A DNA stretch of 64,000 bases from Fusobacterium ulcerans. Lineage in GTDB: Bacteria > Fusobacteriota > Fusobacteriia > Fusobacteriales > Fusobacteriaceae. The stretch spans positions 3,426,282-3,490,281 of the forward strand of contig NZ_CP028105.1 of assembly GCF_003019675.1 (NCBI RefSeq), written 5' to 3'. Below, piece after piece: positions 3,184 through 41,296 of this stretch; the stretch's first letter is position 1, and each line of letters begins with the position of its first letter. The notes beneath the pieces are model-generated. The model was not told the origin of the DNA and ran no database searches. It saw nothing but the letters and a program-made list of their open reading frames with translations. Made by a program: the position numbers and the translations under genes.

Positions 3184-3188
3184 TATTA

Positions 3189-6980: not shown

Positions 6981-6994
6981 AATTTTGTATAATA

Positions 6995-8332: not shown

Positions 8333-8359
8333 TTTTATCCCTCCATTTCATGACATAAA

Positions 8360-8403
8360 TAAAAAAATCCCAAAACTTACGATTATGTAAATTTCGGGAT
8401 TAA
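8360..8403 (-). terminator. Terminator of riboswitch leader 4
   Basis: On the minus strand AATCCC and GGGATT close an imperfect stem of about 15 bp followed by TTTTTTTATT, directly before the MORN gene ribosome binding site. Confidence 0.8.
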
Positions 8404-8454
8404 ATATTTTGTATCAAAAAATAAATAACAAAATATGATCTCTAAATTCACACT

Positions 8455-8640: not shown

Positions 8641-8679
8641 ATATTTTTATTTTATTCTTTTGTTTGTTTTATATTTTTA

Positions 8680-8991: not shown

Positions 8992-9084
8992 AATTATCAC
9001 TCCTTTTAATTTTATACAGCTAAAAAACATTTATTTAAATTAATCTTTATACACTTTATTTTTTCTAGGTATTATTTTAAATAT

Positions 9085-9780
9085 TTACTTTACATTAAAT
9101 CTGAAATCTTTATAGAAATAGAGTTTTATTTTTTCACCATGATAAATAATTGGATCGAACTCCCATTTTTTAAGAGCCTTCTCTACCTCTTTTCTAAAGC
9201 CGTAAGAAGTAAAATTGTCCAGAAATATTATTTCCTCCACTTTTCCATTGAGCCCAATGAGGAATTTTGTTTTTATAACTACCTCATTTCTGTAGTTAGC
9301 TCTTTTAGCAATAATAGGGTATTCTGGTTCAACCTCTCTTTTGATTCTGTACCTGATGCCTTCTCCGCTTTTCTGATCTCCTATATAGGTACCAGTTCCA
9401 TCTTTTACCAGTCCAGCCAAAGGATTATATGGTATTGAATTTCCAGAAGTTGTCTCCTCTTTTGCAGTTTCCTTACTTTCTTCTTTTATTGGTTCCTCTT
9501 TCTTTTTAACTTCTTTTTTAACAACTTTTTTTACTACTTTTTTCTCTGTCTTCTTTTCAACTTTCTTTTCTTCCTTTGGTTTTCCCTCTTTCTTAGGCTC
9601 TGGCTGTGCAAGAGACTGCAAAGGTGCTGGAGCAGGGGTATTATTCTCTACTTTCAGCTCGCTGAGATATACGAGAACATTCTTGCTATCCAGCTTTATA
9701 TCTTTTACAGGCTTGGTATATACAGCAAAAATCAACAGCAGATGACATAAAAAAGAGATTACATAGAATTTCAATTTCAT
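9085..9780 (-). CDS. tonB: TonB energy-transducing protein
   Basis: The protein has an N-terminal membrane anchor (about residues 4-22), a periplasmic spacer rich in Lys, Glu and Pro (about residues 55-115, with KKVEKKTEKK-type repeats) and a C-terminal TonB domain of about 90 residues with the EYPIIAKRANYRNEVVIKTKF and KKWEFDP hallmarks. It links the proton-motive-force machine ExbB-ExbD to the two outer-membrane receptors. The start could be the ATG at 9780 or a GTG three bases before; the ATG is preferred. It follows exbD by a few bases. Confidence 0.92.
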   Translation of the reverse strand: MKLKFYVISFLCHLLLIFAVYTKPVKDIKLDSKNVLVYLSELKVENNTPAPAPLQSLAQPEPKKEGKPKEEKKVEKKTEKKVVKKVVKKEVKKKEEPIKEESKETAKEETTSGNSIPYNPLAGLVKDGTGTYIGDQKSGEGIRYRIKREVEPEYPIIAKRANYRNEVVIKTKFLIGLNGKVEEIIFLDNFTSYGFRKEVEKALKKWEFDPIIYHGEKIKLYFYKDFRFNVK

Positions 9781-9789
9781 CACCTACTT

Positions 9790-10200
9790 TTACTTTATAC
9801 TGTTTATTTCTAATTTTTCCAGTCCTATATTCTTCAGCCTTCCCATAGTTTCAATTACAGTTTCATATCTTAAATCTTTATCAGCACTGACAATAAGGGT
9901 TTGTTCCTTTCTTCCTTTCATCAGTTCACTTACAGTTTCTTCCAGTTTTGTATTTTCTATCTCTACAGAATCCTCACCATTTTTAAAGAAATACTTTCCA
10001 TCTTTATCTATTATCAGTTCAGCTCCCTCTTCTGTTGTATTTATTTCCTCTACAGAAGATTTTGGGAGATTCATATCAAATTTATTGTACTGGCTGAATG
10101 TAGTTACCAGCATAAAAAATATCAACAGCTGAAATACCACATCTATCAATGGTGTCAGATCAGGATTGATTATCCCCTTCCTTCTTCTTAGTTCTCTCAT
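9790..10200 (-). CDS. exbD: ExbD biopolymer transport protein
   Basis: This 136-residue protein has a single N-terminal membrane segment (about residues 15-38) that contains the conserved Asp (LTPLIDVVFQLLIFFML) needed for proton use. A short periplasmic domain follows, with the VSADKDLRYETVIETM motif. Its ATG overlaps the exbB stop by four bases (ATGA), so the two are translated together. With ExbB it forms the inner-membrane motor that drives TonB. Confidence 0.95.
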   Translation of the reverse strand: MRELRRRKGIINPDLTPLIDVVFQLLIFFMLVTTFSQYNKFDMNLPKSSVEEINTTEEGAELIIDKDGKYFFKNGEDSVEIENTKLEETVSELMKGRKEQTLIVSADKDLRYETVIETMGRLKNIGLEKLEINSIK

Positions 10201-10826
10201 ATCTCTTCCTTCTTTCTAGCCTTTTTGATATTGATAAGGGCAGTAGACGTTTTCTCTATCTCAAGCATTATCTTGTCAGCTTTTCTGCTGAATGTCTGAT
10301 AAGCTATTATTGCTGGTATTGCTATAAATAATCCTGCTGCTGTTGTAAGAAGTGCTTCTGATATCCCATTGGCTACTACATTTGGATCTCCTGCCCCTTG
10401 TAATGCTATGGCTTTAAATGATTTTATCATTCCAAGTACAGTTCCAAGAAGTCCAGCCATTGGAGAGATATATGCCACTATTCCCAATATAGACAATCTT
10501 CTTTCAAGGTTTTCTATCTGTTCCAAAGCTTTTTCTTTCATAAGCTTCTCTTTGCTTTCATATAGATCATTTTCATTTCTATATGCTAAAAGTATGCTCT
10601 TTACTGTTCTTGACACTGAATTATTTGTTTTATCACACAATGCTATTGCTTCGTTTTCTTTTTCTGCTCTCACTAAGTTTACTATTTCCTCTTTAAATTC
10701 TGTTGTTATTCCCTGTTCATTTTTCATGAAATAAGCAGTTCTCTCCAGTATTGTTCCCAATCCTACTATAGACAATGCAGCTAAAAGCCACATCATTATT
10801 CCACCTTCTACAAAATAAGTGTACAT
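10197..10826 (-). CDS. exbB: ExbB / MotA-TolQ family proton channel
   Basis: This 209-residue protein has three membrane segments: one near the N-terminus (about residues 8-25) and two in the C-terminal MotA/TolQ/ExbB domain, the second starting at the AYISPMAGLLGTVLGMIKSF motif. The length is normal for short ExbB proteins. It is the first gene of the exbB-exbD-tonB operon, has an AGGAGG ribosome binding site, and follows riboswitch 5 and its terminator. This set is therefore dedicated to B12 uptake, although it could serve other receptors. Confidence 0.95.
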   Translation of the reverse strand: MYTYFVEGGIMMWLLAALSIVGLGTILERTAYFMKNEQGITTEFKEEIVNLVRAEKENEAIALCDKTNNSVSRTVKSILLAYRNENDLYESKEKLMKEKALEQIENLERRLSILGIVAYISPMAGLLGTVLGMIKSFKAIALQGAGDPNVVANGISEALLTTAAGLFIAIPAIIAYQTFSRKADKIMLEIEKTSTALINIKKARKKEEI

Positions 10827-10866
10827 TTTTCCTCCTGATCTGTATTTTAAATTAATTGACTACATT

Positions 10867-10924
10867 AAAAAATCTCTGATAAAAAACAAGTGCCCAAGCC
10901 CCCATTTTGTTTTTATCAGAGAAT
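10867..10924 (-). terminator. Terminator of riboswitch leader 5
   Basis: The minus strand has a long stem, CTCTGATAAAAACAA with TTGTTTTTTATCAGAG, followed by ATTTTTT. It lies between the aptamer and exbB. Confidence 0.85.
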
Positions 10925-10997
10925 CTTAAATATCATATTATTTAAATAAATATTTAACTTCTTATCCTCCCTTTTTCCCACCGAAAAAGTAAAAAAC

Positions 10998-11153
10998 TAG
11001 TTTTTAGGTAAGTCTCCTGACTCAGTTTCATCCTACTCCCTACCTTCCCAGATCAGTGATCCAGTGGTTATAGGTTTCATCCACTTTACAGTAGCGGGGG
11101 CTGTGTGGGTTTTTCACCCATCTTCCTCTTTTAAGCCTTACGGCACCTAACAC
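10998..11153 (-). promoter_or_regulatory. Cobalamin riboswitch 5 (exbB-exbD-tonB operon)
   Basis: The minus strand shows GAGGAAGATGGGTGAAAAAC, CAGCCCCCGCTACTGTAA, GTGGATGAAACC, CTGGGAAGG and the B12 box GAGTCAGGAGACTTACC (11007-11023). The core is slightly altered from the consensus but complete. Confidence 0.93.
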
Positions 11154-11162
11154 TATACTTAT

Positions 11163-11191
11163 ATGATATGATTTATCTTGTACTTTGTCAA
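11163..11191 (-). promoter_or_regulatory. Sigma-70 promoter for exbB operon leader
   Basis: Minus-strand TTGACA (11186-11191), a 17-base spacer and TATCAT (11163-11168), about 10 bases before the aptamer. Confidence 0.78.
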
Positions 11192-11357
11192 TCATTTTCA
11201 TAAAAACTGATATATAAATTATTAAACAGCTATACTTCTTGAAAATTATACTTTTCAAAATTTTATTTTTTATAATTTATATTTTAAAAGCTATTCCCTA
11301 CCATAAGTTTATTTTTTCATCAGCTCTCTGAAAACTTTTTTATTTCAAAATTATTTT

Positions 11358-12146
11358 TTATTTAACTATCCCTTTTAATCTAAAGTATGGAACTCCATCT
11401 TCTATTTCAATTGAAGATTCCACTCTGTACACCTCTCTTATGAGCTGTGGTGTAAGAACTTCCAATGATTTTCCCTCTTTATATTTTTTACCATCTTTAA
11501 GCACAATTATTCTGTTGCTGTATTGAGCAGCCTGATTCAAATCGTGAAGCACCATTATTATAGTTATTCCCAGATTCTGATTCAATTCTCTCACCAGCTC
11601 CATTATCTCAAACTGATGACATATATCCAGATATGTAGTAGGTTCATCCAGAAGAAGTATTCCTGTCTTTTGAGCAAGTACCATTGCTATCCATACTTTC
11701 TGCCTCTCTCCACCTGACAGACTCATTACTTTTCTCTCTCTGAATTTATCCAGTTTGCACATTGTAATAGCCCAATCTACAATATCTTTATCTTCCTGAT
11801 TATATACTTCATACCATTTTTTATGAGGAACTCTTCCATACATGATAAAATCATATACAGTTATATCATCAGGAATCTCATTGTTTTGTGATACAAATGC
11901 AAGCTTCTTTGCAAATTCTTTGTTTTTTATATTACTGATCTCTTCTCCATCTAAATATATGTTTCCATTTTTACATGGGAGTACTCTTGATATAGCTTTC
12001 AAAAGAGTTGATTTTCCACAGCCGTTAGTCCCTATTATAGAAACTACCTCTCCCTTAGTTATCTCAATATTCAAATCGTGAATGATGACCTTTTCTCCAT
12101 AAGCCAGTTCTATATTATGTCCTTTTATAGTTTCCATTCTAGTCAC
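11358..12146 (-). CDS. btuD: Cobalamin ABC transporter ATPase (BtuD/FecE type)
   Basis: This 262-residue ATPase has a Walker A (IGTNGCGKSTLL, about residues 37-48), the signature LSGGERQKVWIAMVLAQ and Walker B ILLLDEPTTYLD, followed by the switch His in VLHDLN. These are the full marks of the FecE/BtuD/FhuC subfamily. Its start overlaps the end of the permease gene by 8 bases. It powers import of the corrinoid from the periplasmic binding protein through BtuC. The start may be the fourth residue (a second Met). About 200 bases separate it from riboswitch 5, and no terminator was identified at its 3' end. Confidence 0.9.
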   Translation of the reverse strand: MTRMETIKGHNIELAYGEKVIIHDLNIEITKGEVVSIIGTNGCGKSTLLKAISRVLPCKNGNIYLDGEEISNIKNKEFAKKLAFVSQNNEIPDDITVYDFIMYGRVPHKKWYEVYNQEDKDIVDWAITMCKLDKFRERKVMSLSGGERQKVWIAMVLAQKTGILLLDEPTTYLDICHQFEIMELVRELNQNLGITIIMVLHDLNQAAQYSNRIIVLKDGKKYKEGKSLEVLTPQLIREVYRVESSIEIEDGVPYFRLKGIVK

Positions 12147-13140
12147 CTACCTTTCTCAGCAGGTACAGGAAGAACGGCACACCAATTACAGCCATTACTA
12201 TACCAGCAGGTATCTCAATAGGTGAAAACATAGTTCTTGATATTGTGTCAGCTATTACCAGCACTACAGCACCAAGAAGTCCAGCAAATGGTATCAGATA
12301 TGTGTGATCTGAACCTATAATCAATCTGGCTATGTGAGGAACTATCAGTCCTACAAAGCCTATCAGTCCTACATTTGCTACTGATATTCCTGTTAGAAAA
12401 CAGGCAAGAGCACAAAGTTTTAATCTTTTTCTAGGAATATCTACTCCCAGATTCACAGCAAAATTATCTCCTAATTGAAGAATATTTGCATCTCTTATCA
12501 TAGTAAAACAGGCTAAAATTCCCACAGCAGTATATGGAAGCAGTCCTGTTACATGTCTCCAGTTTTTCCCATTGAGACTTCCATTTAGCCATGACAATAC
12601 TCCCTGTATCTCATCACTGAATAATATAAACATCAATCCTGTAATACTTCCAAGTATAGCATTTATAGCTACCCCCGACAGAATTACCCTGATAGGCTTC
12701 AGCCCTTTTTTCCATGCCAGCATAAATACAATGGCACAGGCTATTGCTCCCCCTACAAATGCAGAGAAATTCATAAAAAATATAGCTTTAGGATAAAGTA
12801 TCATAATAATCAGAGCAGTGACGCTAGCTCCTGAAGACACCCCTGTAAGACCCGGATCAGCCAGAGGATTTTTCATTACAGCTTGTAACAGCACTCCAGC
12901 CAATGACAGATTACACCCTACCATTACAGCAATCAATATACGTGGTATTCTTATATCCCATAAAATAGCTTTTAATATCTCATCGTCATAACTTTTTATA
13001 AAAAGAGATTTCAGTATCTCTCCAGAAGTATAATTTACACTCCCAAATCTCACTGAAAATATTATTGAAAAACCTAGAATAACCAGAGCAGTAAAGATAA
13101 GAATTATCTTCCTCCCTCTCTTATCTTTATTCATAAACAT
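12139..13140 (-). CDS. btuC: Cobalamin ABC transporter permease (BtuC/FecCD family)
   Basis: This 333-residue membrane protein has about ten transmembrane helices and the FecCD motifs RIPRILIAVMVGCNLSLAG, NPLADPGLTGVSSGA and GFVGLIVPHIARLIIG. The loop after the last motif is where BtuD couples. It overlaps both neighbours (14 bases with btuF and 8 with btuD), a tightly packed operon. By context the cargo is a corrinoid; siderophore permeases of the same family look alike, so the riboswitch decides the call. Confidence 0.92.
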   Translation of the reverse strand: MFMNKDKRGRKIILIFTALVILGFSIIFSVRFGSVNYTSGEILKSLFIKSYDDEILKAILWDIRIPRILIAVMVGCNLSLAGVLLQAVMKNPLADPGLTGVSSGASVTALIIMILYPKAIFFMNFSAFVGGAIACAIVFMLAWKKGLKPIRVILSGVAINAILGSITGLMFILFSDEIQGVLSWLNGSLNGKNWRHVTGLLPYTAVGILACFTMIRDANILQLGDNFAVNLGVDIPRKRLKLCALACFLTGISVANVGLIGFVGLIVPHIARLIIGSDHTYLIPFAGLLGAVVLVIADTISRTMFSPIEIPAGIVMAVIGVPFFLYLLRKVGD

Positions 13141-14029
13141 ATCTGTATAATTCCTCCAATGCGTCTATCGAATTTACCCCGGCACTCATTCTGAACAATG
13201 TAGGATCGATATCCAGTATTTTATTATTTTTATATGCCTTTGTGAGCTTCCATACAGGGTTGCTTGAAAATATCTCTTCAAATCCCTCTCCATTTTTAGT
13301 CTGACTTGTAGGAAGTCTCAATATTACATCAGGATTAGCTTTAATGAGCTGTTCCATGCTGAATGGTACTGATCTTTTCAAAAGTACACTGTTATCAATA
13401 GAAGTTACTACATTTTCACATCCTATCTTGTCCATAAGCCCTTGCAGAAAATGGTTTTTTCCAGTCATAAAAAAACTCTCTCCATTTCCATAAAGGATGG
13501 CTACTCTCTTCTTTTCTTTTCCCTTTAATTTTTCAGCCAGTATTTTTTCTCTCCTTTTCACATCATCAAGTATAGCCTTAGCTTCCTTGTCCTTATGAAA
13601 AGCTTTTCCCAATATCTCAATAGCCTTCATAGATTCATCATATGTATCTACTTTCATATAAAAACTAGGTATATTGAGATTGTCATATTTAGGCTTTAAT
13701 GCTGGTTTAGAATAAATAGTAGAGATTACAAGATCTGTTCTCAGAGCTTTTACTCTTTCCAGATCAGGTATTCCAGATCTCCCTATTCTTGGCACCTCAT
13801 CATATTTTTCAGGTATCTTTGTTGTAGAACTTGCCACTCCTACCAGATCAATATCCAGAGCTGCCAGAAATCTTGATATTATAGCCGAATCTGTAACTAC
13901 AGCCTTTGGAAAATAATCCAGCTGCAAGTCCTCTTCTCCCTGATGTATAGAAAATTTCTCTTTTCCAAAAGATATATTTCCTATTACAAGTAGGAATACA
14001 GCAGTTAGAATAATATATACTTTTTTCAT
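13127..14029 (-). CDS. btuF: Cobalamin periplasmic binding protein (BtuF/FepB fold)
   Basis: This 300-residue protein has a signal peptide (about residues 1-22, ending ..GNISFG) and the two-lobed TroA-type fold: DSAIISRFLAALDIDLVGVA in lobe 1, a long linking helix, and MEQLIKANPDVILRLP in lobe 2. A weak ribosome binding site (AGGAGA) precedes the ATG. It is the first gene of btuF-btuC-btuD and follows riboswitch 6. It is a second such protein besides the truncated gene at the left edge; the two N-termini differ, so they may serve different transporters or ligands. Confidence 0.9.
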   Translation of the reverse strand: MKKVYIILTAVFLLVIGNISFGKEKFSIHQGEEDLQLDYFPKAVVTDSAIISRFLAALDIDLVGVASSTTKIPEKYDEVPRIGRSGIPDLERVKALRTDLVISTIYSKPALKPKYDNLNIPSFYMKVDTYDESMKAIEILGKAFHKDKEAKAILDDVKRREKILAEKLKGKEKKRVAILYGNGESFFMTGKNHFLQGLMDKIGCENVVTSIDNSVLLKRSVPFSMEQLIKANPDVILRLPTSQTKNGEGFEEIFSSNPVWKLTKAYKNNKILDIDPTLFRMSAGVNSIDALEELYRYVYE

Positions 14030-14060
14030 TATTTTCTCCTGTTATATAATTTTATCCAAT

Positions 14061-14091
14061 AAAAAAACCCAGCACAAAGAAATACCAGGCT
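14061..14091 (-). terminator. Terminator of riboswitch leader 6
   Basis: The minus strand can pair CCTGGTA with TGCTGGG (using G-U pairs) and continues with TTTTTTTATTGG, just before the btuF ribosome binding site. A second perfect hairpin, GCTACAT with ATGTAGC, lies directly upstream (14089-14122). Confidence 0.65.
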
Positions 14092-14134
14092 ACATCAAAA
14101 GCTCTTTAAATTTCTATGTAGCATAACTTTCCTC

Positions 14135-14300
14135 GGAAGCTTGTACAATAATCTTTCTAAGCAGGTCTTCTGACTTATAGCTCGAACACAGCTCCCTCCT
14201 TCTCGGATATATCCAATGGTATTTGGAAGCTATTTGCTAAATTACAGCGGCCGGACCGTTTGAGATTTTCACTCAATTCCCTTTTAATTAAAAAAACTTA
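14135..14300 (-). promoter_or_regulatory. Cobalamin riboswitch 6 (btuFCD operon)
   Basis: Minus-strand elements: GGGAATTGAGTGAAAATC, GGTCCGGCCGCTGTAA, a GGGAG segment, and the B12 box AAGTCAGAAGACCTGC (about 14162-14178). The CCGGCCGCTGT core departs from CCCGCCACTGT by compensating-looking changes. Confidence 0.92.
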
Positions 14301-14336
14301 GAATAAACATCATATACAATATATTTTAATACTTTA

Positions 14337-14365
14337 ATTTTATTACTTAACAGCTTCTTTGTCAA
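14337..14365 (-). promoter_or_regulatory. Sigma-70 promoter for btuFCD leader
   Basis: Minus-strand TTGACA (14360-14365), a 17-base spacer and TAAAAT (14337-14342). Confidence 0.8.
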
Positions 14366-14427
14366 TGAAGAATTATATAAATATCCTTTCACCCAAAAAT
14401 TCTAAAGTGTATTTTTAATTTTGGGTA

Positions 14428-14456
14428 TTGACATTTGAAAGAAAACATAGTATATT
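14428..14456 (+). promoter_or_regulatory. Sigma-70 promoter for cbiK leader
   Basis: TTGACA (14428-14433), a 17-base spacer and TATATT (14451-14456). It is divergent from the btuFCD promoter; the two -35 boxes are about 60 bases apart. Confidence 0.8.
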
Positions 14457-14480
14457 CATACTGAACAGAATAATTGAATT

Positions 14481-14670
14481 TGAGGTTCTATATTTTAGAA
14501 TAATTGGGAAGTGAGGTTTAATCCCTCCGCGGTCCCGCCACTGTGATGCTGACGAAAGATATAACCACTGGATTATTTTTAATCTGGGAAGGGTATCTAG
14601 TAGGATGAAGCTAAGCCAGGAGACCTGCCTCAGATGTATTGCTGTGTAATATCATTGCGTGGACGAGAGA
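14481..14670 (+). promoter_or_regulatory. Cobalamin riboswitch 7 (cbiK)
   Basis: Plus-strand elements in canonical order: GGGAAGTGAGGTTTAATCCC, GCGGTCCCGCCACTGTGA, GCTGACGAAAGA, CTGGGAAGG, GGATGAAGC and the B12 box AGCCAGGAGACCTGCC (14613-14630). The following GCGTGGACGAG is the usual 3' extension near the pseudoknot. Confidence 0.96.
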
Positions 14671-29593: not shown

Positions 29594-29683
29594 ATCATAC
29601 TCCTTATGCAGTATATTCTTTCTTCTTACATTATAAATAATATAGAGAAAAAAATCTACATAATATATTTTTAAAAGATAACC

Positions 29684-29738
29684 AAAAAAGAGGGTACTTC
29701 CAAAGTCTGCTGAATCAGCTCTGGAAATATCCCTCTCT
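29684..29738 (-). terminator. Terminator of the 4-hydroxybutyrate operon
   Basis: Minus-strand AGAGGGATATTTCCAGAG.. pairs with ..TTTGGAAGTACCCTCT, with a small internal CTG/CAG hairpin, followed by TTTTTTGG. It closes the operon begun at the sigma-54 promoter near 34450. Confidence 0.8.
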
Positions 29739-29740
29739 CT

Positions 29741-29980
29741 TTATTTTAATTTCTCCATTATCCATTTTAATATTTCTTCTTCATGAAATTTACCTATATG
29801 TACAAGATACTCCTGAATATTTATCACCCTCTTATTTCCCAAAGCTTTTACACACCCTCTCTGACAACCATTCAATATTATTATTACTTCTTCTTTACTT
29901 GGCGGCAAAAGCTTTAGTTTTTCATATAGTTTCTCTCTATGATACAAAGGATTGCATCCTCCACAAAATCTAATTTCCAT
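29741..29980 (-). CDS. Small Cys-rich protein of the 4-hydroxybutyrate operon
   Basis: This 79-residue cytosolic protein has two cysteine pairs: CGGC near the N-terminus (MEIRFCGGCNPLYHRE) and a C-x3-C pair (LNGCQRGCVKALG), suggesting a metal or Fe-S ligand set of four cysteines. I do not recognise a named family. It is the last gene of the operon and starts 10 bases after the permease stop. The operon contains an oxygen-sensitive [4Fe-4S] enzyme and a NifU-like protein, so a role in cluster handling or in redox/thiol chemistry is possible but not shown. Confidence 0.6.
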   Translation of the reverse strand: MEIRFCGGCNPLYHREKLYEKLKLLPPSKEEVIIILNGCQRGCVKALGNKRVINIQEYLVHIGKFHEEEILKWIMEKLK

Positions 29981-29989
29981 AAATTTTTC

Positions 29990-31348
29990 CTATTCTTTAA
30001 CTTCTACTGTTTCATTCTGTTTATTTTTTACACTTACAAGGAGAAGATGAAGAATGATTCCTATTCCCATTCCCCATGCTGCACCTTTTGTTGCAAGCAC
30101 TGCTGCCATTACCCCAGCTATTCCCATATCTAGTTCAGATTCACACATAGACATAGCAAGTCTTGTACAGATATATCCCTGAACCAGCATAGTAAGCGAA
30201 AGAGCCACTGGAAGTATAGGCTGTACCAATGAAACTATTGGTATCAATGCAACTGACACGCAAGTCATTATTCTGAATGTTCCTACTCCACCATATATAG
30301 AATCCATAGCTTCTCTTCCCTCTTTGTATCTCTGTGAAACAGAAGCTGTAACTGCTGCCCATAATGGTCCGCACATAGGGACATATGGAATCAATACTGC
30401 CTGAACTATATTTCTAATACCACTGATAAGATTAGAACGATTAGAGTTGAAATCTATTTTCTCATCCTGTCTTACTTCATCAGCTTCATTTATCAAGGCA
30501 CTGCTTGTAACAAAATCTCCAAATGCAATTATATATACCATTACTGCCATAGGGATAGCACTTATGAAAAATGTCATCTTAGGAACCCCTACACCAAATA
30601 TACTCACTTCTCTCAATATATTTCCAATTTCAGGTATCTTTATAACCGACCCTATCTCTATTTTAGGAAATGGAAGTTCTTTTACCAACGGACTGATTAT
30701 TATACTCAAAAAAATTGCTGGAAGCATTCCATATTTACCAAAAGCATCTGCCAGTTTATTTCTTTTTCTTAAATCTCTGAATTTTACTGAGAAAAGAAGA
30801 TAAAAAGAAAATAGTCCTCCAAAAGCTATTGAAATGGGATAAAGATTAAATCTTCCTTTTGCACTGAATTCTCCAACTACTGCTGCAAATCCTGCTCCTA
30901 ACAATATCCCTGATTTTATAGATACTGGAATTATTCCCATAAGTTTTCCAGCAAGCCCTGTTATACCCATTATTATGAATATGCAGGCAACTAATATCTG
31001 TAAAGCTATAAGGGCATGTATTCTGTCTACACCAATAGTGAATTTAGAAAGATAAACTATTGTCAAAGGAATAGAAGGAGTTATCCAACCGGGTACTACA
31101 GGATCTCCAAGAAGAGCATGAAGATTGTATAATATTCCATTAATTATTACCATTGACCATGCCAGCTCAAAAGATATCCCCAGATGTTCTGTCAGTATAG
31201 GGATAGCCCCAAGGCAAGTAGCACACATAAGTATTGCCTGCATAGCTTCCGACCATTCCCATTTGTAATGGATAAAAGGGAGTCTCAGCTTGAATATCCC
31301 TAATGGAGTATATGGTTGTTCCTGTCCGTATTCTCTCTTAATTGCCAT
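29990..31348 (-). CDS. Membrane permease (NCS2-like / purine-pyrimidine or SulP-type), 4-hydroxybutyrate operon
   Basis: This 452-residue protein has about 12-14 hydrophobic segments and a conserved GDPVVPGWITPSIPLTIVYL loop in the first third; another (GILLGAGFAAVVGEFSAKGR) lies before the centre. It is most like nucleobase-cation symporter-2/SulP-fold transporters, but I cannot place it in a defined subfamily. Because it lies between the CoA-transferase and a small gene in an operon for 4-hydroxybutyryl-CoA chemistry, I infer that it imports a small organic acid such as 4-hydroxybutyrate. AGGGGA lies before the ATG. Confidence 0.55.
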   Translation of the reverse strand: MAIKREYGQEQPYTPLGIFKLRLPFIHYKWEWSEAMQAILMCATCLGAIPILTEHLGISFELAWSMVIINGILYNLHALLGDPVVPGWITPSIPLTIVYLSKFTIGVDRIHALIALQILVACIFIIMGITGLAGKLMGIIPVSIKSGILLGAGFAAVVGEFSAKGRFNLYPISIAFGGLFSFYLLFSVKFRDLRKRNKLADAFGKYGMLPAIFLSIIISPLVKELPFPKIEIGSVIKIPEIGNILREVSIFGVGVPKMTFFISAIPMAVMVYIIAFGDFVTSSALINEADEVRQDEKIDFNSNRSNLISGIRNIVQAVLIPYVPMCGPLWAAVTASVSQRYKEGREAMDSIYGGVGTFRIMTCVSVALIPIVSLVQPILPVALSLTMLVQGYICTRLAMSMCESELDMGIAGVMAAVLATKGAAWGMGIGIILHLLLVSVKNKQNETVEVKE

Positions 31349-31360
31349 ACTTTTCCCCTC

Positions 31361-32662
31361 CTAAAGTGTTTTATATTTTTCCAAAGCTTTCTGAGCCAAT
31401 TCCTCTCTGAAATCAGGATGAGCTATTTTTATCAGTTCCTTAGCTCTTTCTCTCAAAGTTTTTCCTTTCAGATCAGCAATACCATATTCAGTAATTATAT
31501 ACTGCACATCATTTCTCGAAGTAGTCACAGCAGCTCCTTCATCCAGATAAGCAGTAATTCTTGATACTTTTCCTTTAGAAGCTGTAGAAGGTATTGCTAT
31601 TACTGACTTGCCATTTAAAGCAAATGCTGTTCCTCTTACAAAATCTACCTGCCCCCCAGTTCCGCTGAATTGTTTTGTTCCCATAGTTTCAGCATTTACC
31701 TGTCCCATAAGATCTACCTGTATTGCTGAATTTATAGATACTATATTATCATTTTTTGATATCACTCTAGGATCATTTACATAGTCAACTGGATATATTT
31801 CTACACTTGGATTATCATCTACATAATCATAAAGCTTTCTAGTTCCCATAAGGAAGCTCACTATTGATTTGCCTTTATGAAGAGTTTTCCTGCTGTTGTT
31901 AATAACCCCTGCCTTCACCAGTTCCACTACTCCATCTGATATCATTTCTGAATGTATTCCTAAATCTTTCTTATCTTTCAGAAATGTAAGCACTGCATCA
32001 GGTATAGCCCCTATTCCCAGCTGTAAAGTATCTCCATCATTTATCAGACTCGCACAGTATTCTCCAATCTTTCTTTCAATATCTCCAATTCTAGGAGGAT
32101 TTAAAACAATGATAGGCTCGTCTCTCTCTACTATTACATCTATTTCTGATATATGTATAAAGTTATCTCCCAGTACTCTCGGCATAAATTTATTTACTTG
32201 AGCTATGACGCATTTTGCATTTTCAGCAGCAGCTTTTGTATAGTCACAAGTTATTCCCATACTGCAATACCCATGCTCATCAGGTGTAGATACTTGTATC
32301 AAAGCTACATCTACTGGCATACTTCCACCTTTCTTAAAAAGTTTAGGTATTTCAAAGAAAAATGATGTTGTATAATCTCCATTTCCTGCATTTACCACAT
32401 CTCTGGTACCTCCTCCAAGAAAAAGTCCATTATGTCTGAAATGCCCTGCCATTTCAGGCTTCATATATTCACATTTTCCAAGAGCTACCATGTGAACTAT
32501 TTCAACATTTTTGTATTCTTTATAGTTTTGCACCATTGCATCCACCACAGTCTGAGGCTCTCCAGCTGCATGGCAGATTACCACACGGCTGTCTGATTTT
32601 ATTTTTTTCACTGCTTCTTCTGGTGAACACACTTTTTTCTTATAGTCCTCTCTCCAATCCAT
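31361..32662 (-). CDS. Acetyl-CoA hydrolase/transferase family: 4-hydroxybutyrate CoA-transferase
   Basis: This 433-residue enzyme belongs to the Cat2/AbfT branch of the acetyl-CoA hydrolase/CoA-transferase family. It shows the CoA-binding stretch near LQLGIGAIPDAVLTFL (about residues 215-230), the conserved Glu in HSEMISDGVVEL (the catalytic Glu that forms the thioester), and the C-terminal SGTGGQVDFVRGTAFA motif. It lies 4 bases after a NifU-like gene and upstream of the permease. It would activate 4-hydroxybutyrate to its CoA ester using acetyl-CoA or butyryl-CoA. Specificity is inferred from context. Confidence 0.85.
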   Translation of the reverse strand: MDWREDYKKKVCSPEEAVKKIKSDSRVVICHAAGEPQTVVDAMVQNYKEYKNVEIVHMVALGKCEYMKPEMAGHFRHNGLFLGGGTRDVVNAGNGDYTTSFFFEIPKLFKKGGSMPVDVALIQVSTPDEHGYCSMGITCDYTKAAAENAKCVIAQVNKFMPRVLGDNFIHISEIDVIVERDEPIIVLNPPRIGDIERKIGEYCASLINDGDTLQLGIGAIPDAVLTFLKDKKDLGIHSEMISDGVVELVKAGVINNSRKTLHKGKSIVSFLMGTRKLYDYVDDNPSVEIYPVDYVNDPRVISKNDNIVSINSAIQVDLMGQVNAETMGTKQFSGTGGQVDFVRGTAFALNGKSVIAIPSTASKGKVSRITAYLDEGAAVTTSRNDVQYIITEYGIADLKGKTLRERAKELIKIAHPDFREELAQKALEKYKTL

Positions 32663-32666
32663 AAAT

Positions 32667-32945
32667 CTATCTCCCCCTCAAATAACTTTTAGCTATCTCT
32701 ATAAATTCTTTGGAAGCACCAGCATTTACATGGAGTACTTCTATCTCTGGGAATTTTTCTCTTACACTTATTTTTATAAAATTCTCACTGGTATCAATTG
32801 AGTGAGGGCAGGTACAACACTGCCCCATCAATCTTAAAACCAGTTTCCTGTTTTTCTCATCATACTCCTCAACAGATATATCTCCATTGTGTTTACGTAG
32901 TTCTGGCCTTATCTCCTCATCTAAAAATTTTTCTATTTTATCCAT
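32667..32945 (-). CDS. NifU-like C-terminal domain protein
   Basis: This 92-residue protein is a stand-alone NifU C-terminal (Nfu-type) domain: the opening FLDEEIRPELRKHNGDISV and the Cys pair in GQCCTCPHSIDT, which is C-x2-C plus an adjacent Cys. Such proteins carry or deliver Fe-S clusters. It is located directly after 4-hydroxybutyryl-CoA dehydratase (3 bases away), an enzyme that needs a [4Fe-4S] cluster, so a dedicated carrier is an appealing idea. The start is the first ATG and the next gene follows at 4 bases. Confidence 0.85.
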   Translation of the reverse strand: MDKIEKFLDEEIRPELRKHNGDISVEEYDEKNRKLVLRLMGQCCTCPHSIDTSENFIKISVREKFPEIEVLHVNAGASKEFIEIAKSYLRGR

Positions 32946-32948
32946 AAA

Positions 32949-34400
32949 TTACCCTTTGATATCTAAAATATCTTTTACAAGCTGTTTTTTAACTTCAAGA
33001 TTAGACTGTCTGCTTATCATAATTCTTTGTGCCTGAGGCGACCCAGCTCCATGCATAGACTCTGTTCTGTATCCTACAGCTGCTGTTCCCAATGTAAGAT
33101 TTTCTATAAGTCTAAGTACTTTCATCCTATCTATTGTAGGTACAGAAGCCACTCCTTTCAGATATTTTTCTATATATCCACCTAGTACTGGATCTCTGTA
33201 GTCTTTCTCAGAAGGCATAGTTACAAACAATCCACCAGCGATATCTTCTGCCAGTCTAGCTATTTCATATGGGAATCTAGTTACATTCTGCTTACAGATA
33301 TTAGCCAGAAGCATATCTATCTCATATGACCCTGCCACTGTTGGATGCCCTTCACTCGAGCAGGCAATTCCTGCACAGTATAGAGTTTCATTTAAATGTA
33401 TCATTTCAATTAATTTATCTTTTATGTGAGAAGCTTTTTTAGTTCCATTATAATCAGAAACAAGAGCTGCTGCTCCAATCAGTACATCTCCAACTCCTAC
33501 TTTACATCCACCATAACTTTGTCTGTGGAATCCTGCAAATCTCTCTACCAGCATTCCAGAAAAATCATACTCTTCGCACATAAATATACGCTCAGTAGGT
33601 ACAAATACATCATCAAATATAACCAGAGCCTCATGTCCACCAAATTTAGGATTTCCTCTGTCCAAAGTTCCCTCTTCAAGTTTTCTTGTATCACATGACT
33701 GTCTTCCATATATTATTTTTATTCCTTTAGTATCACTTGGTACAGAAAAAGCTACTGCATAATCTTTATCCTCTTCTGTCATAGATATAGTCGGCATTAC
33801 AAGTACTTCATGAGAATTTACTATTCCAGTTTGATGTACCTTTGCTCCTTTGACTACAATACCATCTGCTCTTTTCTCTACTATATGAAGGAATAAATCT
33901 GGATCCTCCTGTTGCGATGGTGATAGCCCTCTGTCTCCTTTAGGGTCAGTCATAGCTCCATCTACTGTTAAATCTTCTCTCTGCACATATTCCAAAAATT
34001 TCTTAAATCTAGCATGATATTCTGTTCCATATTTTTGATCTGTTTCATATGTAGTGCTGTATACAGCATTAAAAGCATCCATTCCAACGCAACGCTGGAA
34101 GCACGCAGCTGTTTTCTGTCCCAACAATCTCTGCATTTTTACTTTTTTTACAAGATCATCTGTACTTTGGTGGATATGTGTAAATCTGTTGATTTTCTCT
34201 CCTGTCATATGAGAATCAACTACCATAAGTTCAGCATACTTTGGATCTTGTGCAAGTTCATAAGTCATTATTACTGAATTTAAAGATGGTCTGATGATAG
34301 GATTATCTACTGGATCCTTTACTCTTTCTCCAAAAAGATAAACTTCCAAGTTTAATTTTCTTAAACTCTCTAAATATTCCTGAGGTGTTTTTAAAGCCAT
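32949..34400 (-). CDS. abfD: 4-Hydroxybutyryl-CoA dehydratase / vinylacetyl-CoA delta-isomerase
   Basis: This 483-residue flavoenzyme of the HpaB/acyl-CoA dehydrogenase fold has the expected ligands for its [4Fe-4S] cluster: Cys100 and Cys104 (AACFQRCVGMDAF), His292 and Cys299 (GFHRQSYGGCK), which match the characterised enzyme of Clostridium aminobutyricum by position. It converts 4-hydroxybutyryl-CoA to crotonyl-CoA by a radical route. It heads a five-gene operon and is preceded by a sigma-54 promoter at 34449-34466. All key residues are present, so it should be active. Confidence 0.94.
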   Translation of the reverse strand: MALKTPQEYLESLRKLNLEVYLFGERVKDPVDNPIIRPSLNSVIMTYELAQDPKYAELMVVDSHMTGEKINRFTHIHQSTDDLVKKVKMQRLLGQKTAACFQRCVGMDAFNAVYSTTYETDQKYGTEYHARFKKFLEYVQREDLTVDGAMTDPKGDRGLSPSQQEDPDLFLHIVEKRADGIVVKGAKVHQTGIVNSHEVLVMPTISMTEEDKDYAVAFSVPSDTKGIKIIYGRQSCDTRKLEEGTLDRGNPKFGGHEALVIFDDVFVPTERIFMCEEYDFSGMLVERFAGFHRQSYGGCKVGVGDVLIGAAALVSDYNGTKKASHIKDKLIEMIHLNETLYCAGIACSSEGHPTVAGSYEIDMLLANICKQNVTRFPYEIARLAEDIAGGLFVTMPSEKDYRDPVLGGYIEKYLKGVASVPTIDRMKVLRLIENLTLGTAAVGYRTESMHGAGSPQAQRIMISRQSNLEVKKQLVKDILDIKG

Positions 34401-34448
34401 TCAAATCACTTCCCTTTAAATTTATTTTAATCCCTTGGTATATGTAAT

Positions 34449-34466
34449 AAGCAAGTTCCCTGCCAA
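34449..34466 (-). promoter_or_regulatory. Sigma-54 (-24/-12) promoter of the abfD operon
   Basis: On the minus strand TTGGCAGGGAACTTGCTT has the GG (-24) and GC (-12) pairs exactly 10 bases apart and fits the TGGCAC-N5-TTGCA consensus at all but two positions. It lies about 50 bases before the abfD start codon. Confidence 0.85.
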
Positions 34467-34536: not shown

Positions 34537-34574
34537 AAAAAAAACTGTATTGCATAATTTCAATACAGTTTTTA
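34537..34574 (-). terminator. Terminator after the sigma-54 activator gene
   Basis: Minus-strand AAAAACTGTATTG pairs with CAATACAGTTTTT and leads into TTTAATTC. Confidence 0.85.
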
Positions 34575-34638: not shown

Positions 34639-36108
34639 TTATTCCTGTCCTGCAAGTTTTCTTGTAATTGTAGCAGGATCTACCTGTAATGCTTTGGCTA
34701 CCTGTCTTTGAGAACCTTTTTCTTTGAGCATATTTTTTATAAGATTCTGCTGAAATTTGAGTGTTGCTTCCTTTAAACTCATTTTATGATACTGATAAAG
34801 TTCCTCTATTACTCCTGTTTTGTCACTTCCTAATTCTAAAGCTCCCTTTTGAAAAATATATTTTGGAAGATAATCAGTAGATACTTCATTTCCTTGAGAT
34901 ATAATTACAAGCTGTTCTATAAGATTTTTCATCTCTCTAATATTTCCAGGCCATTGATACCTATAAAATACCTCTATTATCTCCTGACTGAAAAATTTTT
35001 CCACATCATATTTCTTATTAAATTCTTTCAGAAACCTTAAACAAAGAGGTACTATATCATCTTTTCTCTCTTTTAAAGATGGAATATTTATAGATATCAC
35101 ATTAAGTCTGTAATACAAATCTTCTCTGAATTTTCCCTCTTTTACTAATTCTCTTAAATCTCTGTTTGTTGCAGCTATTATCCTTGCATTTGTCTGTATA
35201 ACTCTCTCCCCACCTATACGCCTTACTTCCAGACTTTCCAATACTTTCAGCAGTTTTACCTGCAAATCTATATTCAGCTCTGATATCTCATCCAAAAACA
35301 AAGTAGAATTATTGGCAAGTTCAAAAACTCCCATTTTTCCTTTTTTTGATGCTCCAGTAAAAGCTCCTGCCTCATATCCAAAAAATTCTGATTCTATAAG
35401 GCTTTCTGGAATAGCTCCACAATTTATCTCAATAAATGTCTGTTCATTTCTGTTGCTGTATTTATGTATCAGCTTGGCTATATGTGTTTTTCCAGTTCCT
35501 GTCTCTCCTGTAAGAAGGACAGAAGTATCCATCTTTGATATCTTCAATATCATTTTCAAAGTATTGAACATAGATTTGTCTTTAAATGTTATATCATCTA
35601 TATCTACCAGCTGTTCTTTCATATTTTCCAGCTCATCTTTATATTTCTGTGTCAGATTCTGATTCAGAAACAATTCTCTTCTTAGTCTTTCTATATCTGA
35701 CAAATCCCTTACATTAGTCACGATATATTTTCTTTTTCCATCTTCATCAAATACTGGTACACTTGTTACAAGCACTTCTTTTCCAGAGGAAAGCTTCTGA
35801 TTTACTGTAGCTTCTTTTCCAGTTTCTATCACTACAAGAGACCCAGAATTGTCATATACTCCTGCCTCTACTAAATCTCTCATATTTTTCCCAATAAGGT
35901 CCTCTATATTCAATCCTGTAATACGTCCATAGGATTTATTTACCAGAAGAGTATTTGCCTCTCCATCAGTTACATAAATCCCATCATAAGATGAGTCCAC
36001 TATGGATTTCATCATCTTATTAATGTATCTATTTTCTATAATCTCATCTTTTAAAGATTCTGATTCTATTTTTTCCCTGAACAACAACCCATCTTCCTTA
36101 TGATCCAT
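34639..36108 (-). CDS. Sigma-54-dependent activator with PAS domain (PAS-AAA+-HTH)
   Basis: This 489-residue regulator has a PAS sensor domain (about residues 30-140, with SSYDGIYVTDGEANTLL), a short coiled linker, and an AAA+ domain (about 165-400) with Walker A GETGTGKTH, the sigma-54 contact loop GAFTGA, Walker B LFLDEIS and the R-finger region. The C-terminal helix-turn-helix (GSQRQVAKALQVDPATITRKL) is of the TyrR/Fis type. It precedes the abfD operon on the same strand, with its terminator, TTGCAA sites and a sigma-54 promoter between. It probably turns the operon on in response to a small molecule sensed by PAS. Confidence 0.92.
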   Translation of the reverse strand: MDHKEDGLLFREKIESESLKDEIIENRYINKMMKSIVDSSYDGIYVTDGEANTLLVNKSYGRITGLNIEDLIGKNMRDLVEAGVYDNSGSLVVIETGKEATVNQKLSSGKEVLVTSVPVFDEDGKRKYIVTNVRDLSDIERLRRELFLNQNLTQKYKDELENMKEQLVDIDDITFKDKSMFNTLKMILKISKMDTSVLLTGETGTGKTHIAKLIHKYSNRNEQTFIEINCGAIPESLIESEFFGYEAGAFTGASKKGKMGVFELANNSTLFLDEISELNIDLQVKLLKVLESLEVRRIGGERVIQTNARIIAATNRDLRELVKEGKFREDLYYRLNVISINIPSLKERKDDIVPLCLRFLKEFNKKYDVEKFFSQEIIEVFYRYQWPGNIREMKNLIEQLVIISQGNEVSTDYLPKYIFQKGALELGSDKTGVIEELYQYHKMSLKEATLKFQQNLIKNMLKEKGSQRQVAKALQVDPATITRKLAGQE

Positions 36109-36360: not shown

Positions 36361-36756
36361 ATGTTTTCATACAAATATAAGATAGTAAAGGAAGATATAA
36401 ACTATGGAGGTCATGTAGGAAATGAGAGAGCTCTTCTTTTCTTTCAATTTTCAAGAATGGCATTCTTTGAATCTCTTGGATTTACAGAATTAGATTTAGG
36501 AGATGGAATAGGAGTTATCCAAAAAAATGGATATGTTGAATATAATAAGGAACTTTTCCTAAATGATGAAATAGAAATAAAAATAACTAAAATAGAAATA
36601 GAAAAAATCAATTTTACTTGCCACTATGAAATATATAATAATGCTGGCGAAAAAGTTATCAACGGATACACTATGCTTGTATGTTATGATTATACAGCTA
36701 AGAAAATAAAAAGAGTTCCTCAAGGCTTTAAAGATAAAGTTGAAGCTCTGGCTTAG
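36361..36756 (+). CDS. Hotdog-fold thioesterase (4HBT family)
   Basis: This 131-residue protein has the hotdog pattern of 4-hydroxybenzoyl-CoA thioesterase/YbgC relatives: DINYGGHVGNERALLFFQFS with a central helix and a long beta-strand tail (KINFTCHYEIYNNAGEKVIN). In place of the usual catalytic Asp in the helix motif there is a Gly-Gly-His segment; which residue does the catalysis is not certain. GGGAGG precedes the ATG. It should split an acyl-CoA; substrate unknown. The next gene follows 16 bases after the stop. Confidence 0.82.
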   Translation: MFSYKYKIVKEDINYGGHVGNERALLFFQFSRMAFFESLGFTELDLGDGIGVIQKNGYVEYNKELFLNDEIEIKITKIEIEKINFTCHYEIYNNAGEKVINGYTMLVCYDYTAKKIKRVPQGFKDKVEALA

Positions 36757-36772
36757 TTAATTGGAGGTTATT

Positions 36773-37204
36773 ATGAAAATACTGGTCAGTGCCTGCCTGT
36801 TAGGTGTAGAATGTCGTTACAATGGTAAGGGAGAATTGAGAGAGGATATAAAAGCTTTGATGAAAGATCATGAACTTATACCAGTGTGTCCAGAACAACT
36901 TGGGGGACTTGCTACTCCTCGTGATCCTGCTGAAAGACAGGGAGATAAAATTATCACAAAAACTGGTATAGATGTTACTGCTGAATATCTGAAAGGAGCA
37001 GAGGAAGTTTTAAAACTGGCTAAGCTCTATAATTGCAGTGCTGCTGTCTTGAAAGAAAGAAGCCCTTCTTGTGGTGCTGGAAAGATTTATGATGGTACTT
37101 TTTCAAAGATACTTATAGCTGGAAACGGAGCTGCTGCTGACTTACTTATAAAGAATGAGATAAAAGTTACTGGCGAATCTGAAATAGATAAAATATTTTT
37201 ATAA
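36773..37204 (+). CDS. DUF523 family protein
   Basis: The ATG at 36773 is chosen because GGAGG lies 7 bases before it; a TTG 12 bases upstream is less likely. The 143-residue product has the DUF523 signature: ILVSACLLGVECRYNGKG at the start, CPEQLGGLATPRDPAER in the middle and LKERSPSCGAGKIYDG near the C-terminus. Several conserved cysteines suggest a metal or disulfide. Its biochemical role is unknown. It follows the thioesterase closely and ends at a strong terminator. Confidence 0.88.
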   Translation: MKILVSACLLGVECRYNGKGELREDIKALMKDHELIPVCPEQLGGLATPRDPAERQGDKIITKTGIDVTAEYLKGAEEVLKLAKLYNCSAAVLKERSPSCGAGKIYDGTFSKILIAGNGAAADLLIKNEIKVTGESEIDKIFL

Positions 37205-39322: not shown

Positions 39323-40045
39323 ATGGATAGATTAAAAGGAAAAATCGCTTTAGTTACTGGAAGTGCTAGGGGAATAGGAAGAGCTGTTGTTGAGAAATTT
39401 GCTGCTGAAGGTGCAGAAATGGTTATCTCTTGTGATATGGGAGAAGCTGTATATGAGCAGTCAAATGTTAGACATGAAATATTAAATGTTACTGACAGAC
39501 CTGCTATAAAAGAATTTGTTGCAAAAATAGCAGCTGAATATGGAAGAATAGATATCTTAATAAACAATGCTGGTATTACTAAAGATGCTCTTTTACAAAG
39601 AATGACTGAAGAGCAATGGGATGCAGTTATAAATGTAAACTTAAAAGGAGTATTCAACATGACTCAAGCTGTTGCTCCTATTATGTCAAAAAATAAATCT
39701 GGATCAATAGTTACTCTTTCATCTGTAGTTGGACTATATGGAAACTTAGCTCAAACTAACTACTCAGCTACAAAAGGTGGAGTTATAGCTATGACTAAAA
39801 CTTGGGCAAAAGAATTAGCAAGAAGAGGAGCTATCAGAGCAAACTGTGTAGCACCTGGATTCATTGAAAGCCCAATGACTGATGTATTATCAGAAAAAGT
39901 AGTTGCTGGAATGATGGAGAGAACTCCATTAGCAAGATTTGGAACTGCTGAAGATGTAGCAAATGCTATTCTTTTCTTAGCAAGTGATGATGCTTCATAC
40001 ATTACAGGACAAGTTTTACCTGTAACTGGAGGACTGGTTATTTAA
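39323..40045 (+). CDS. fabG: Short-chain dehydrogenase, FabG-like 3-oxoacyl reductase
   Basis: This 240-residue NAD(P)H-dependent enzyme has the TGSARGIGRAV nucleotide-binding motif (about residues 12-22), the NNAGIT motif, the catalytic Ser (TLSSVVG), Tyr and Lys (YSATKGG), and a C-terminal TGQVLPVTGGL. It reduces a 3-oxoacyl-ACP or, given that a thiolase follows at 42 bases, acetoacetyl-CoA. AAGGAGG precedes the ATG. Gene context fits the butyrate/acetoacetyl-CoA pathway better than a core fatty-acid operon. Confidence 0.9.
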   Translation: MDRLKGKIALVTGSARGIGRAVVEKFAAEGAEMVISCDMGEAVYEQSNVRHEILNVTDRPAIKEFVAKIAAEYGRIDILINNAGITKDALLQRMTEEQWDAVINVNLKGVFNMTQAVAPIMSKNKSGSIVTLSSVVGLYGNLAQTNYSATKGGVIAMTKTWAKELARRGAIRANCVAPGFIESPMTDVLSEKVVAGMMERTPLARFGTAEDVANAILFLASDDASYITGQVLPVTGGLVI

Positions 40046-40087
40046 TTTTTCACAAATTAAAATAAAATTTAGGTATAGGAGGATTTA

Positions 40088-41296
40088 ATGAGTAAAGTGT
40101 ACATTGTAGCAGCTAAAAGATCTGCTATAGGAAGTTTTTTAGGAAGTTTAGCCCCTTTATCATCTAGCGACCTTGGAGCCGCAGTTGCAAAGCAAGTTAT
40201 TGAAGATGCAAAAATTGATCCAGCTAATCTGGACGAAGTAGTTATCGGAAATGTATTACAAGCAGGTCAGGCACAAGGTGTAGGAAGACAGGTAGCCATA
40301 AAAGCTGGTGTACCTCAGGAAGTTCCTGGTTATACACTGAATATTATATGTGGAAGTGGAATGAAAACTATCATTTCATCATATGCTAACATTAAAGCAG
40401 GAGAAGCAAATCTTATCCTTGCTGGAGGAACTGAATCAATGTCTAATGCTGGATTCATCCTTCCAGGAAAAGTAAGAGGCGGACATAAAATGGCTGACCT
40501 TACTATGAAGGATCATATGGTATTTGATGCTCTTACAGATGCATTTACAAATGTACATATGGGAATCACTGCTGAAAATATAGCTGCTAAATATGGAATC
40601 ACAAGAGAAGAGCAAGATGCATTCTCATTTGCTTCTCAACAAAAAGCAATAGCTGCTGTTGACTCTGGAAGATTCAAAGATGAAATAGTTCCAGTAGTTA
40701 TCAGTACTAAAAAAGGAGATATCACTGTTGATACAGATGAATATCCTAATAGAAAAACTGACCTTGAAAAATTAGGTAAATTAAGACCTTCATTCAAAAA
40801 AGATGGAACTGTAACAGCTGGAAATGCTTCTGGACTAAACGACGGAGCATCAATGATGGTACTTGCTTCTGAAGAAGCTGTTGCTAAATACAACCTTAAA
40901 CCTTTAGTTGAAATTGTTGCTACTGGTATTGGTGGAGTAGACCCTCAAATAATGGGAATGGGACCTGTTCCTGCTATTGGAAATGCTCTTAAAAAATCTG
41001 GAATGAAACTTCAAGATATGGAGCTTATTGAATTGAATGAAGCATTTGCTTCTCAATCTCTAGGAGTTATGAAAGAATTATGTGCACAACACGGTGTAGA
41101 AAGAGAATGGTTCAACGATAAAACTAACGTTAATGGTGGAGCTATCGCTTTAGGACATCCAGTTGGAGCTTCTGGAAACAGAATCATGGTTACTTTAATA
41201 TATGAAATGAAGAAAAGAGGATTAACTTATGGACTTGCTTCTCTATGTATTGGTGGAGGAATGGGAACTGCTATAATCCTTAAAAATGTTGACTAA
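40088..41296 (+). CDS. Thiolase (acetyl-CoA acetyltransferase)
   Basis: This 402-residue thiolase has the nucleophile Cys in NIICGSGMKT (about residue 89), the His in GGAIALGHPVGASGNRI and the second Cys in ASLCIGGGMGTA, with length a little above the usual 392. It condenses two acetyl-CoA to acetoacetyl-CoA or the reverse. It follows the FabG-like gene, giving an acetoacetyl-CoA synthesis and reduction pair. A TAGGAGG ribosome binding site is present. It ends at a strong terminator. Confidence 0.94.
   Translation: MSKVYIVAAKRSAIGSFLGSLAPLSSSDLGAAVAKQVIEDAKIDPANLDEVVIGNVLQAGQAQGVGRQVAIKAGVPQEVPGYTLNIICGSGMKTIISSYANIKAGEANLILAGGTESMSNAGFILPGKVRGGHKMADLTMKDHMVFDALTDAFTNVHMGITAENIAAKYGITREEQDAFSFASQQKAIAAVDSGRFKDEIVPVVISTKKGDITVDTDEYPNRKTDLEKLGKLRPSFKKDGTVTAGNASGLNDGASMMVLASEEAVAKYNLKPLVEIVATGIGGVDPQIMGMGPVPAIGNALKKSGMKLQDMELIELNEAFASQSLGVMKELCAQHGVEREWFNDKTNVNGGAIALGHPVGASGNRIMVTLIYEMKKRGLTYGLASLCIGGGMGTAIILKNVD

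Follow-up and report, generated by a model that had tools for sequence, protein, structure and literature searches.

What do the two small genes that accompany abfD do, and what does the operon that holds them serve? We address these questions for a five-gene operon of Fusobacterium ulcerans that lies in a 64,000-nucleotide (nt) stretch of DNA (contig NZ_CP028105.1, positions 3,426,282 to 3,490,281; hereafter the window). The predicted 4-hydroxybutyryl-coenzyme A (CoA) dehydratase gene abfD is followed there by genes for a stand-alone NFU domain protein, a CoA-transferase, a permease and a small cysteine-rich protein with the motif CGGCNPxY.R...GCxxxC (the CGGCNP protein). AbfD performs a radical dehydration that is mechanistically demanding, and it holds a central place in archaeal carbon fixation and in the pathways by which gut and oral bacteria form butyrate from γ-aminobutyrate (GABA) and succinate. 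The two conserved small genes that accompany it have so far been labelled merely ‘nifU’ and ‘hypothetical’. The operon is a real, conserved, fusobacterial version of a known kind of operon; the stronger result is that the two small proteins are tied almost exclusively to AbfD-type dehydratases, as observed for the CGGCNP protein in sampled Clostridia and for NFU within the genus. If these proteins are cluster-handling partners of AbfD, they would give a direct handle on obtaining working enzyme in engineered strains and insight into the evolution of a dedicated iron-sulphur (Fe-S) supply line. A 4-hydroxybutyrate (4HB) importer would indicate which gut bacteria can feed on this compound.

Among 245 genomes drawn evenly from class Clostridia, the CGGCNP protein is found in 10 genomes as 12 copies, all of which lie at most 5 kb from an abfD-family gene and ten of which are only 38–550 nt away. 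Conversely, 12 of the 13 abfD-family genes with at least 55% identity in this sample have the CGGCNP protein. The pattern of co-occurrence on genomes is near-perfect (hypergeometric P 6e-17, which ignores kinship and is therefore too small). Four of the 12 copies adjoin AbfD paralogues of 55–62% identity; at the three of these loci that were read, the adjoining genes resemble, by eye, a ferredoxin-type 2-oxoacid oxidoreductase and not a CoA-transferase or permease. The CGGCNP protein stays with AbfD paralogues outside 4HB operons and therefore follows the dehydratase rather than the 4HB pathway, transport or CoA transfer. It is likely, on comparative sequence grounds, to be an accessory or repair factor of AbfD-type dehydratases. 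The Fe-S ligands of AbfD were tried as a marker to divide CGGCNP-linked from unlinked paralogues and gave no separation, because even a relative at 37% identity retains them.

Across 80 abfD loci taken from other bacteria, NFU is present at 39 loci, the CGGCNP protein at 38, the CoA-transferase at 53 and the permease at 16, with a sigma-54 activator and a 4HB dehydrogenase at 33 each (31 each with a stricter cut-off). Of the 80 loci, 54 have one or both of the small proteins, whose median distances from abfD are 32 nt (NFU) and 304 nt (CGGCNP protein). A single gene order is common to many loci, as would be expected if the small genes were passengers inherited with one ancestral operon and functionally unconnected with AbfD. 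We consider this explanation very improbable because the order and strand of the small genes vary (upstream and divergent in Lachnospiraceae, 3–7 kb away in L126, L091 and G309), and because the CGGCNP protein also accompanies diverged AbfD paralogues where the rest of the operon is missing. NFU and CGGCNP genes also form a separate pair (L024); in G049 a MaoC-like gene precedes such a pair, which lies apart from abfD, and a similar domain, a MaoC-like hydratase read by eye, is fused to the CGGCNP protein at seven loci, mostly in Lachnospiraceae (L097, L102, L103, L104, L116, L127 and L128); both the separate pair and the fusions argue against passengers.

The NFU protein matches PF01106 at 60.1 bits (cut-off 27), and both cysteines of its CxxC motif (in GQCCTCP) are invariant among 27 relatives. 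It has the domain and CxxC of the NFU/NfuA C-terminal domain but differs in being a stand-alone protein that, in the genus, is tied to abfD. Among 12 genus genomes, NFU genes are confined to the four with abfD, which have five in total, each immediately downstream of an abfD copy; none occurs in the other eight, which lack abfD, so NFU is not a general or housekeeping carrier in the genus. NFU proteins of other organisms carry [4Fe-4S] clusters to their targets, and the most parsimonious interpretation is that this one supplies AbfD; by this analogy, the NFU protein is likely to be a [4Fe-4S] cluster carrier for AbfD. The first-pass annotation had proposed both small proteins as maturation factors of the dehydratase. 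Gene linkage strongly supports service to the dehydratase for both, and from it we infer the maturation role. An NFU-like protein without the CxxC (GSYYGSA instead) is encoded in G049 (L029, 6209–6478), with an iron alcohol dehydrogenase and a permease paralogue nearby.

The CGGCNP protein has 79 residues, and its relatives have four cysteines in common, with C6, C9 and C39 invariant and C43 nearly invariant. No Pfam or NCBIfam model scores above its cut-off for this protein; the DGC domain (PF08859) reaches 17.4 bits against a cut-off of 27, with weak matches in 2 of 30 members. In the AlphaFold2 model, which is of high confidence (pLDDT 88.9), the CxxC follows strand 1 and the GC-x3-C follows strand 2, and the cysteines may share one metal site. 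Foldseek comparison of the model with the PDB gave nothing significant (best E 1.4), and a PDB profile search gave chance-level matches, the best being the small GTP-binding protein 5kh0 (E 0.19). The closest fold match, the IspG C-terminal domain (VIA-align Z 4.9 over 75 residues), is too weak for a claim of kinship; profile comparison with it is non-significant (1.5% probability), with the CxxC and GC in register. The IspG C-terminal domain carries a [4Fe-4S] cluster.

The small proteins could act otherwise than in maturation, with the CGGCNP protein acting in redox chemistry, either as a thioredoxin/SelW-like protein or as an electron donor for the reactivation of AbfD or of its flavin, and NFU simply the Fe-S carrier of the organism, co-expressed on demand. 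Three of 30 CGGCNP members match SelT/SelW/SelH and Rdx profiles weakly (best E 0.003–0.009; the window protein has no match), and the CxxC stands directly after the first strand, as in thioredoxin/SelW-type folds. The family conserves four cysteines, however, and not one pair, and NFU is not the general carrier in a genus whose members without abfD lack it, so we regard this alternative as unlikely.

Within the window, the five genes occupy 34400 to 29741 of the minus strand and are separated by 3, 4, 12 and 9 nt in order (Table 1); the genome consists of one 3.54 Mb contig. AbfD matches 1u8v over its full length (residues 3–482, E 6.6e-238), and C100, C104, H292 and C299, which we take to be the [4Fe-4S] ligand positions of the known enzyme, are invariant in alignments of relatives. 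The CoA-transferase has full-length similarity to 3eh7 and 3gk7, and its HSEM glutamate aligns with E238 of 3gk7, presumably the catalytic glutamate. These comparisons support the identification of the two window proteins as 4-hydroxybutyryl-CoA dehydratase (AbfD) and 4HB CoA-transferase (AbfT), by sequence the same two enzymes as in Clostridium aminobutyricum (1u8v, 3gk7). The gene order and coordinates, the enzyme identities and the single transcript (gaps of 3–12 nt, promoter in front, terminator behind) of the first-pass annotation are thus borne out. Its description of a complete, self-sufficient module holds for uptake, CoA transfer and dehydration, but the genome yielded no dedicated 4HB dehydrogenase; the best match to the locus-type enzyme has 35% identity and adjoins a pdxA-like gene. 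External 4HB is favoured over GABA because no close 4HB dehydrogenase was detected, and the earlier suggestion of GABA as the source is not upheld. A generic alcohol dehydrogenase could supply 4HB instead.

Table 1. Coordinates, strand and supporting evidence of the operon genes and control elements in the window.
Feature	Position	Strand	Evidence
abfD, 4-hydroxybutyryl-CoA dehydratase (AbfD; identity supported by sequence)	32949..34400	minus	1u8v match; C100, C104, H292, C299 conserved; single genome copy
Stand-alone NFU (NifU C-terminal) domain protein, GQCCTCP (CxxC)	32667..32945	minus	PF01106; adjacency to abfD in genus
4HB CoA-transferase (AbfT; identity supported by sequence)	31361..32662	minus	3eh7 E 8e-171, 3gk7 E 1e-150
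NAT-fold permease, candidate 4HB transporter	29990..31348	minus	7tak 42% identity, TM 0.87; genome context
Small CGGCNPxY.R...GCxxxC protein, AbfD-linked family	29741..29980	minus	alignment; linkage; AlphaFold2 model pLDDT 88.9
Sigma-54 -24/-12 promoter TTGGCAGGGAACTTGCT (GG-N10-GC)	34450..34466	minus	pattern scans; conservation in relatives
Sigma-54 enhancer-binding activator (PAS, AAA+ with GAFTGA, HTH; PrdR-like below cut-off)	34639..36108	minus	Pfam, NCBIfam, synteny
Putative upstream activator site 1, TTGCA-N4-TGCAA	34600..34613	minus	palindrome count vs shuffles; recurrence in relatives
Putative upstream activator site 2, TTGCA-N4-TGCAA	34582..34595	minus	palindrome count vs shuffles; recurrence in relatives
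Intrinsic terminator of activator gene	34540..34573	minus	-13.4 kcal/mol, z -6.1
Operon terminator hairpin with T tract	29681..29741	minus	-32.2 kcal/mol, z -6.8, ends in T6, directly after last gene

The operon has a -24/-12 promoter, an activator whose GAFTGA motif is seen in translation, and an RpoN encoded in the genome (one well-scoring match; a second is weak and below cut-off), as befits sigma-54 control. The promoter TTGGCAGGGAACTTGCT is the sole match to YTGGCA-N6-TTGCW in the window (chance expectation 0.14). Genome-wide there are 13 such sites, against none for a reversed control pattern; the majority of the 13 (L151–L163) are directly upstream of long open frames, and together these perfect sites make a ready RpoN regulon list. 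A perfect 11/11 promoter stands upstream of abfD in all eight examined fusobacterial loci with abfD and the permease, and a site of 10/11 or better is present at 19 of 30 further abfD loci that have an activator gene close by, versus 3 of 1500 shuffles. The promoter called clear and the terminator called strong in the first reading both stand. The activator contains Pfam Sigma54_activat (5e-67), PAS and HTH_50 domains, scores 404.7 bits against NCBIfam PrdR (below its cut-off of 795), and occupies the same position in genus genomes with abfD, in G015 and in G037. TTGCA-N4-TGCAA occurs twice in the window, whereas none of 100 shuffles has two copies, and two copies likewise occur in L018, L019, L020 and L022. 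The activator and these two palindromes, which are likely upstream sites, can be added to the operon unit as first described.

All four genus genomes with abfD, and G015, have the order activator–abfD–NFU–CoA-transferase–permease–small gene; G037 has it too, with a second permease and an iron alcohol dehydrogenase of 371 residues in addition. Clostridium homopropionicum has the whole set (L063: activator–abfD–NFU–CGGCNP–CoA-transferase–permease). G025 has a second abfD module with activator, abfD, NFU, CoA-transferase and, farther on, a dehydrogenase, but without this permease, so that one genome holds both the permease and the dehydrogenase versions. In four other Fusobacteriaceae (L193, L194, L195 and L197), abfD–NFU–CoA-transferase adjoin genes that resemble, by eye, heterodisulfide-reductase/hydrogenase-type electron-transfer genes, and three of these genomes also have succinate dehydrogenase/fumarate reductase-like genes there (by eye).

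The model of the permease superposes on the NAT transporter 7tak (E 1.8e-30), and no Pfam or NCBIfam family cut-off is reached (MOT1 14.8 bits, cut-off 30; BenE 21.4 bits, cut-off 203.4); it is therefore assigned to NAT by fold only and not as a nucleobase transporter. Of the 16 abfD loci with the permease, 14 lack a 4HB dehydrogenase gene (the overlap between these 16 and the 31 dehydrogenase loci is two; P 0.02), and the activator is likewise present at 14 of 16 (P 1e-5); the permease thus tends to take the place of the dehydrogenase. C. homopropionicum, which has the whole set, grows with 4HB as sole substrate (PMC4591306). For the proposal that the permease transports 4HB, it is this context, the avoidance of the dehydrogenase and the C. 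homopropionicum set, that provides the support.

Permease relatives in four other Fusobacteriaceae genomes (L025–L028) lie near a glycyl radical enzyme cluster. In the two genomes tested (G040 and G053), the enzyme scores above cut-off as (2S)-3-sulfopropanediol dehydratase, and in G040 its activase is likewise identified above cut-off; there the permease relative lies in or near an HpfG-type cluster (L025, 2017–9461) that is followed by a second similar cluster. The expected end product of the sulfopropanediol dehydratase pathway is 3-hydroxypropane-1-sulfonate, which is the sulfonate counterpart of 4HB. A preference for small omega-hydroxy anions would account for both permease contexts; it is equally possible that the sulfopropanediol-linked branch imports the diol itself. 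A single abfD clade was sought in the permease tree and rejected, as several clades were seen, with the sulfopropanediol-linked branch nested inside. A joint reading, which we put forward tentatively and at somewhat less than even odds, is that the CGGCNP proteins are an undescribed family of dedicated Fe-S accessory proteins (for insertion, protection or repair) for AbfD-type radical dehydratases, acting with NFU where both are present, and that the permease belongs to a NAT-fold branch for omega-hydroxy acid anions such as 4HB and its sulfonate counterpart.

Taken as a whole, the operon is probably (about 60%) an inducible catabolic module for uptake and fermentation of external 4HB, with two accessory proteins dedicated to the dehydratase. 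The activator would respond to an inducing signal, bind the TTGCA-N4-TGCAA sites and drive sigma-54 transcription of one mRNA. The NAT-fold permease would import 4HB, the CoA-transferase would convert it to 4-hydroxybutyryl-CoA, and AbfD, using a [4Fe-4S] cluster and flavin adenine dinucleotide, would dehydrate this to crotonyl-CoA, with butyrate formed elsewhere. The NFU protein would supply AbfD with [4Fe-4S] clusters, and the CGGCNP protein, whose four cysteines probably bind a metal or cluster, would be a second dedicated factor that aids cluster insertion or repair.

Several points weigh against this reading. Neither small protein is nearby at 26 of the 80 abfD loci, so neither is strictly needed at the locus, and C. 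aminobutyricum AbfD has reportedly been obtained active in Escherichia coli without them. The sequences compared are related by descent, so that P values overstate the case, and the permease phylogeny is mixed with long branches. The closest solved relative of the permease, 7tak, is deposited under the name PurT and presumably transports purines. The permease might accordingly move something else, such as crotonate, butyrate, GABA or a purine, with the operon serving 4-hydroxybutyryl-CoA made within the cell. The 42% identity to PurT would fit this, as would the abfD loci of Clostridioides difficile and many Bacteroidales, which have a 4HB dehydrogenase instead of the permease. We nevertheless doubt it, since the context of the window permease is 4HB and not purines, this genome yielded no close dehydrogenase, loci with the dehydrogenase tend not to have the permease, and C. 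homopropionicum grows on 4HB.

How new is the module? Nie et al. 2019 (PMC6615313) list a sigma-54/XanR operon abfD-nifU-hyp-ach-golB in Clostridium with the function ‘Butyrate/Butanol synthesis’ and leave nifU and hyp uninterpreted in that listing. Such an operon under sigma-54 control had thus been predicted before, in another phylum. The two operons share abfD, nifU, a hypothetical gene, an acetyl-CoA-hydrolase-type (CoA-transferase) gene and sigma-54 control with their own activator; that of the window differs in its Fusobacterium host, in having the small gene last rather than third and in its identified permease. In C. difficile, an abfD-CD630_23400-cat2-4hbD cluster is listed with CD630_23400 as hypothetical (PMC6311696), and the CGGCNP gene that we find between abfD and cat2 is, by gene order, CD630_23400. 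This cluster resembles that of the window in abfD, the CGGCNP protein and the 4HB CoA-transferase, and differs in having 4hbD and sucD/cat1 for succinate to 4HB; a permease of the window type is absent, and NFU was not seen there. Nothing useful emerged when the literature was searched for NifU in connection with the Porphyromonas gingivalis 4HB operon. The first-pass claim of a module not described in this exact form therefore stands in part: the Clostridium listing anticipates the operon and its sigma-54 control, and the open-access literature yielded no paper connecting the small proteins with AbfD or the permease with 4HB transport.

Other features of the window lie beside or beyond the operon. 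A 4HBT-type thioesterase gene and a DUF523 (2-thiouracil desulfurase) gene (36361–37204), divergent from the activator, are kept beside the module in the genus and not in G015 or G037. A short-chain dehydrogenase/reductase (FabG/acetoacetyl-CoA reductase type) and a thiolase are encoded together a few kb from the operon (39323–41296) and could be the C4 end of the pathway. The first 15 kb of the window contain seven cobalamin riboswitches above the Rfam gathering score on both strands (232–14646); so high a density is unusual and suggests that a large region is under B12 control.

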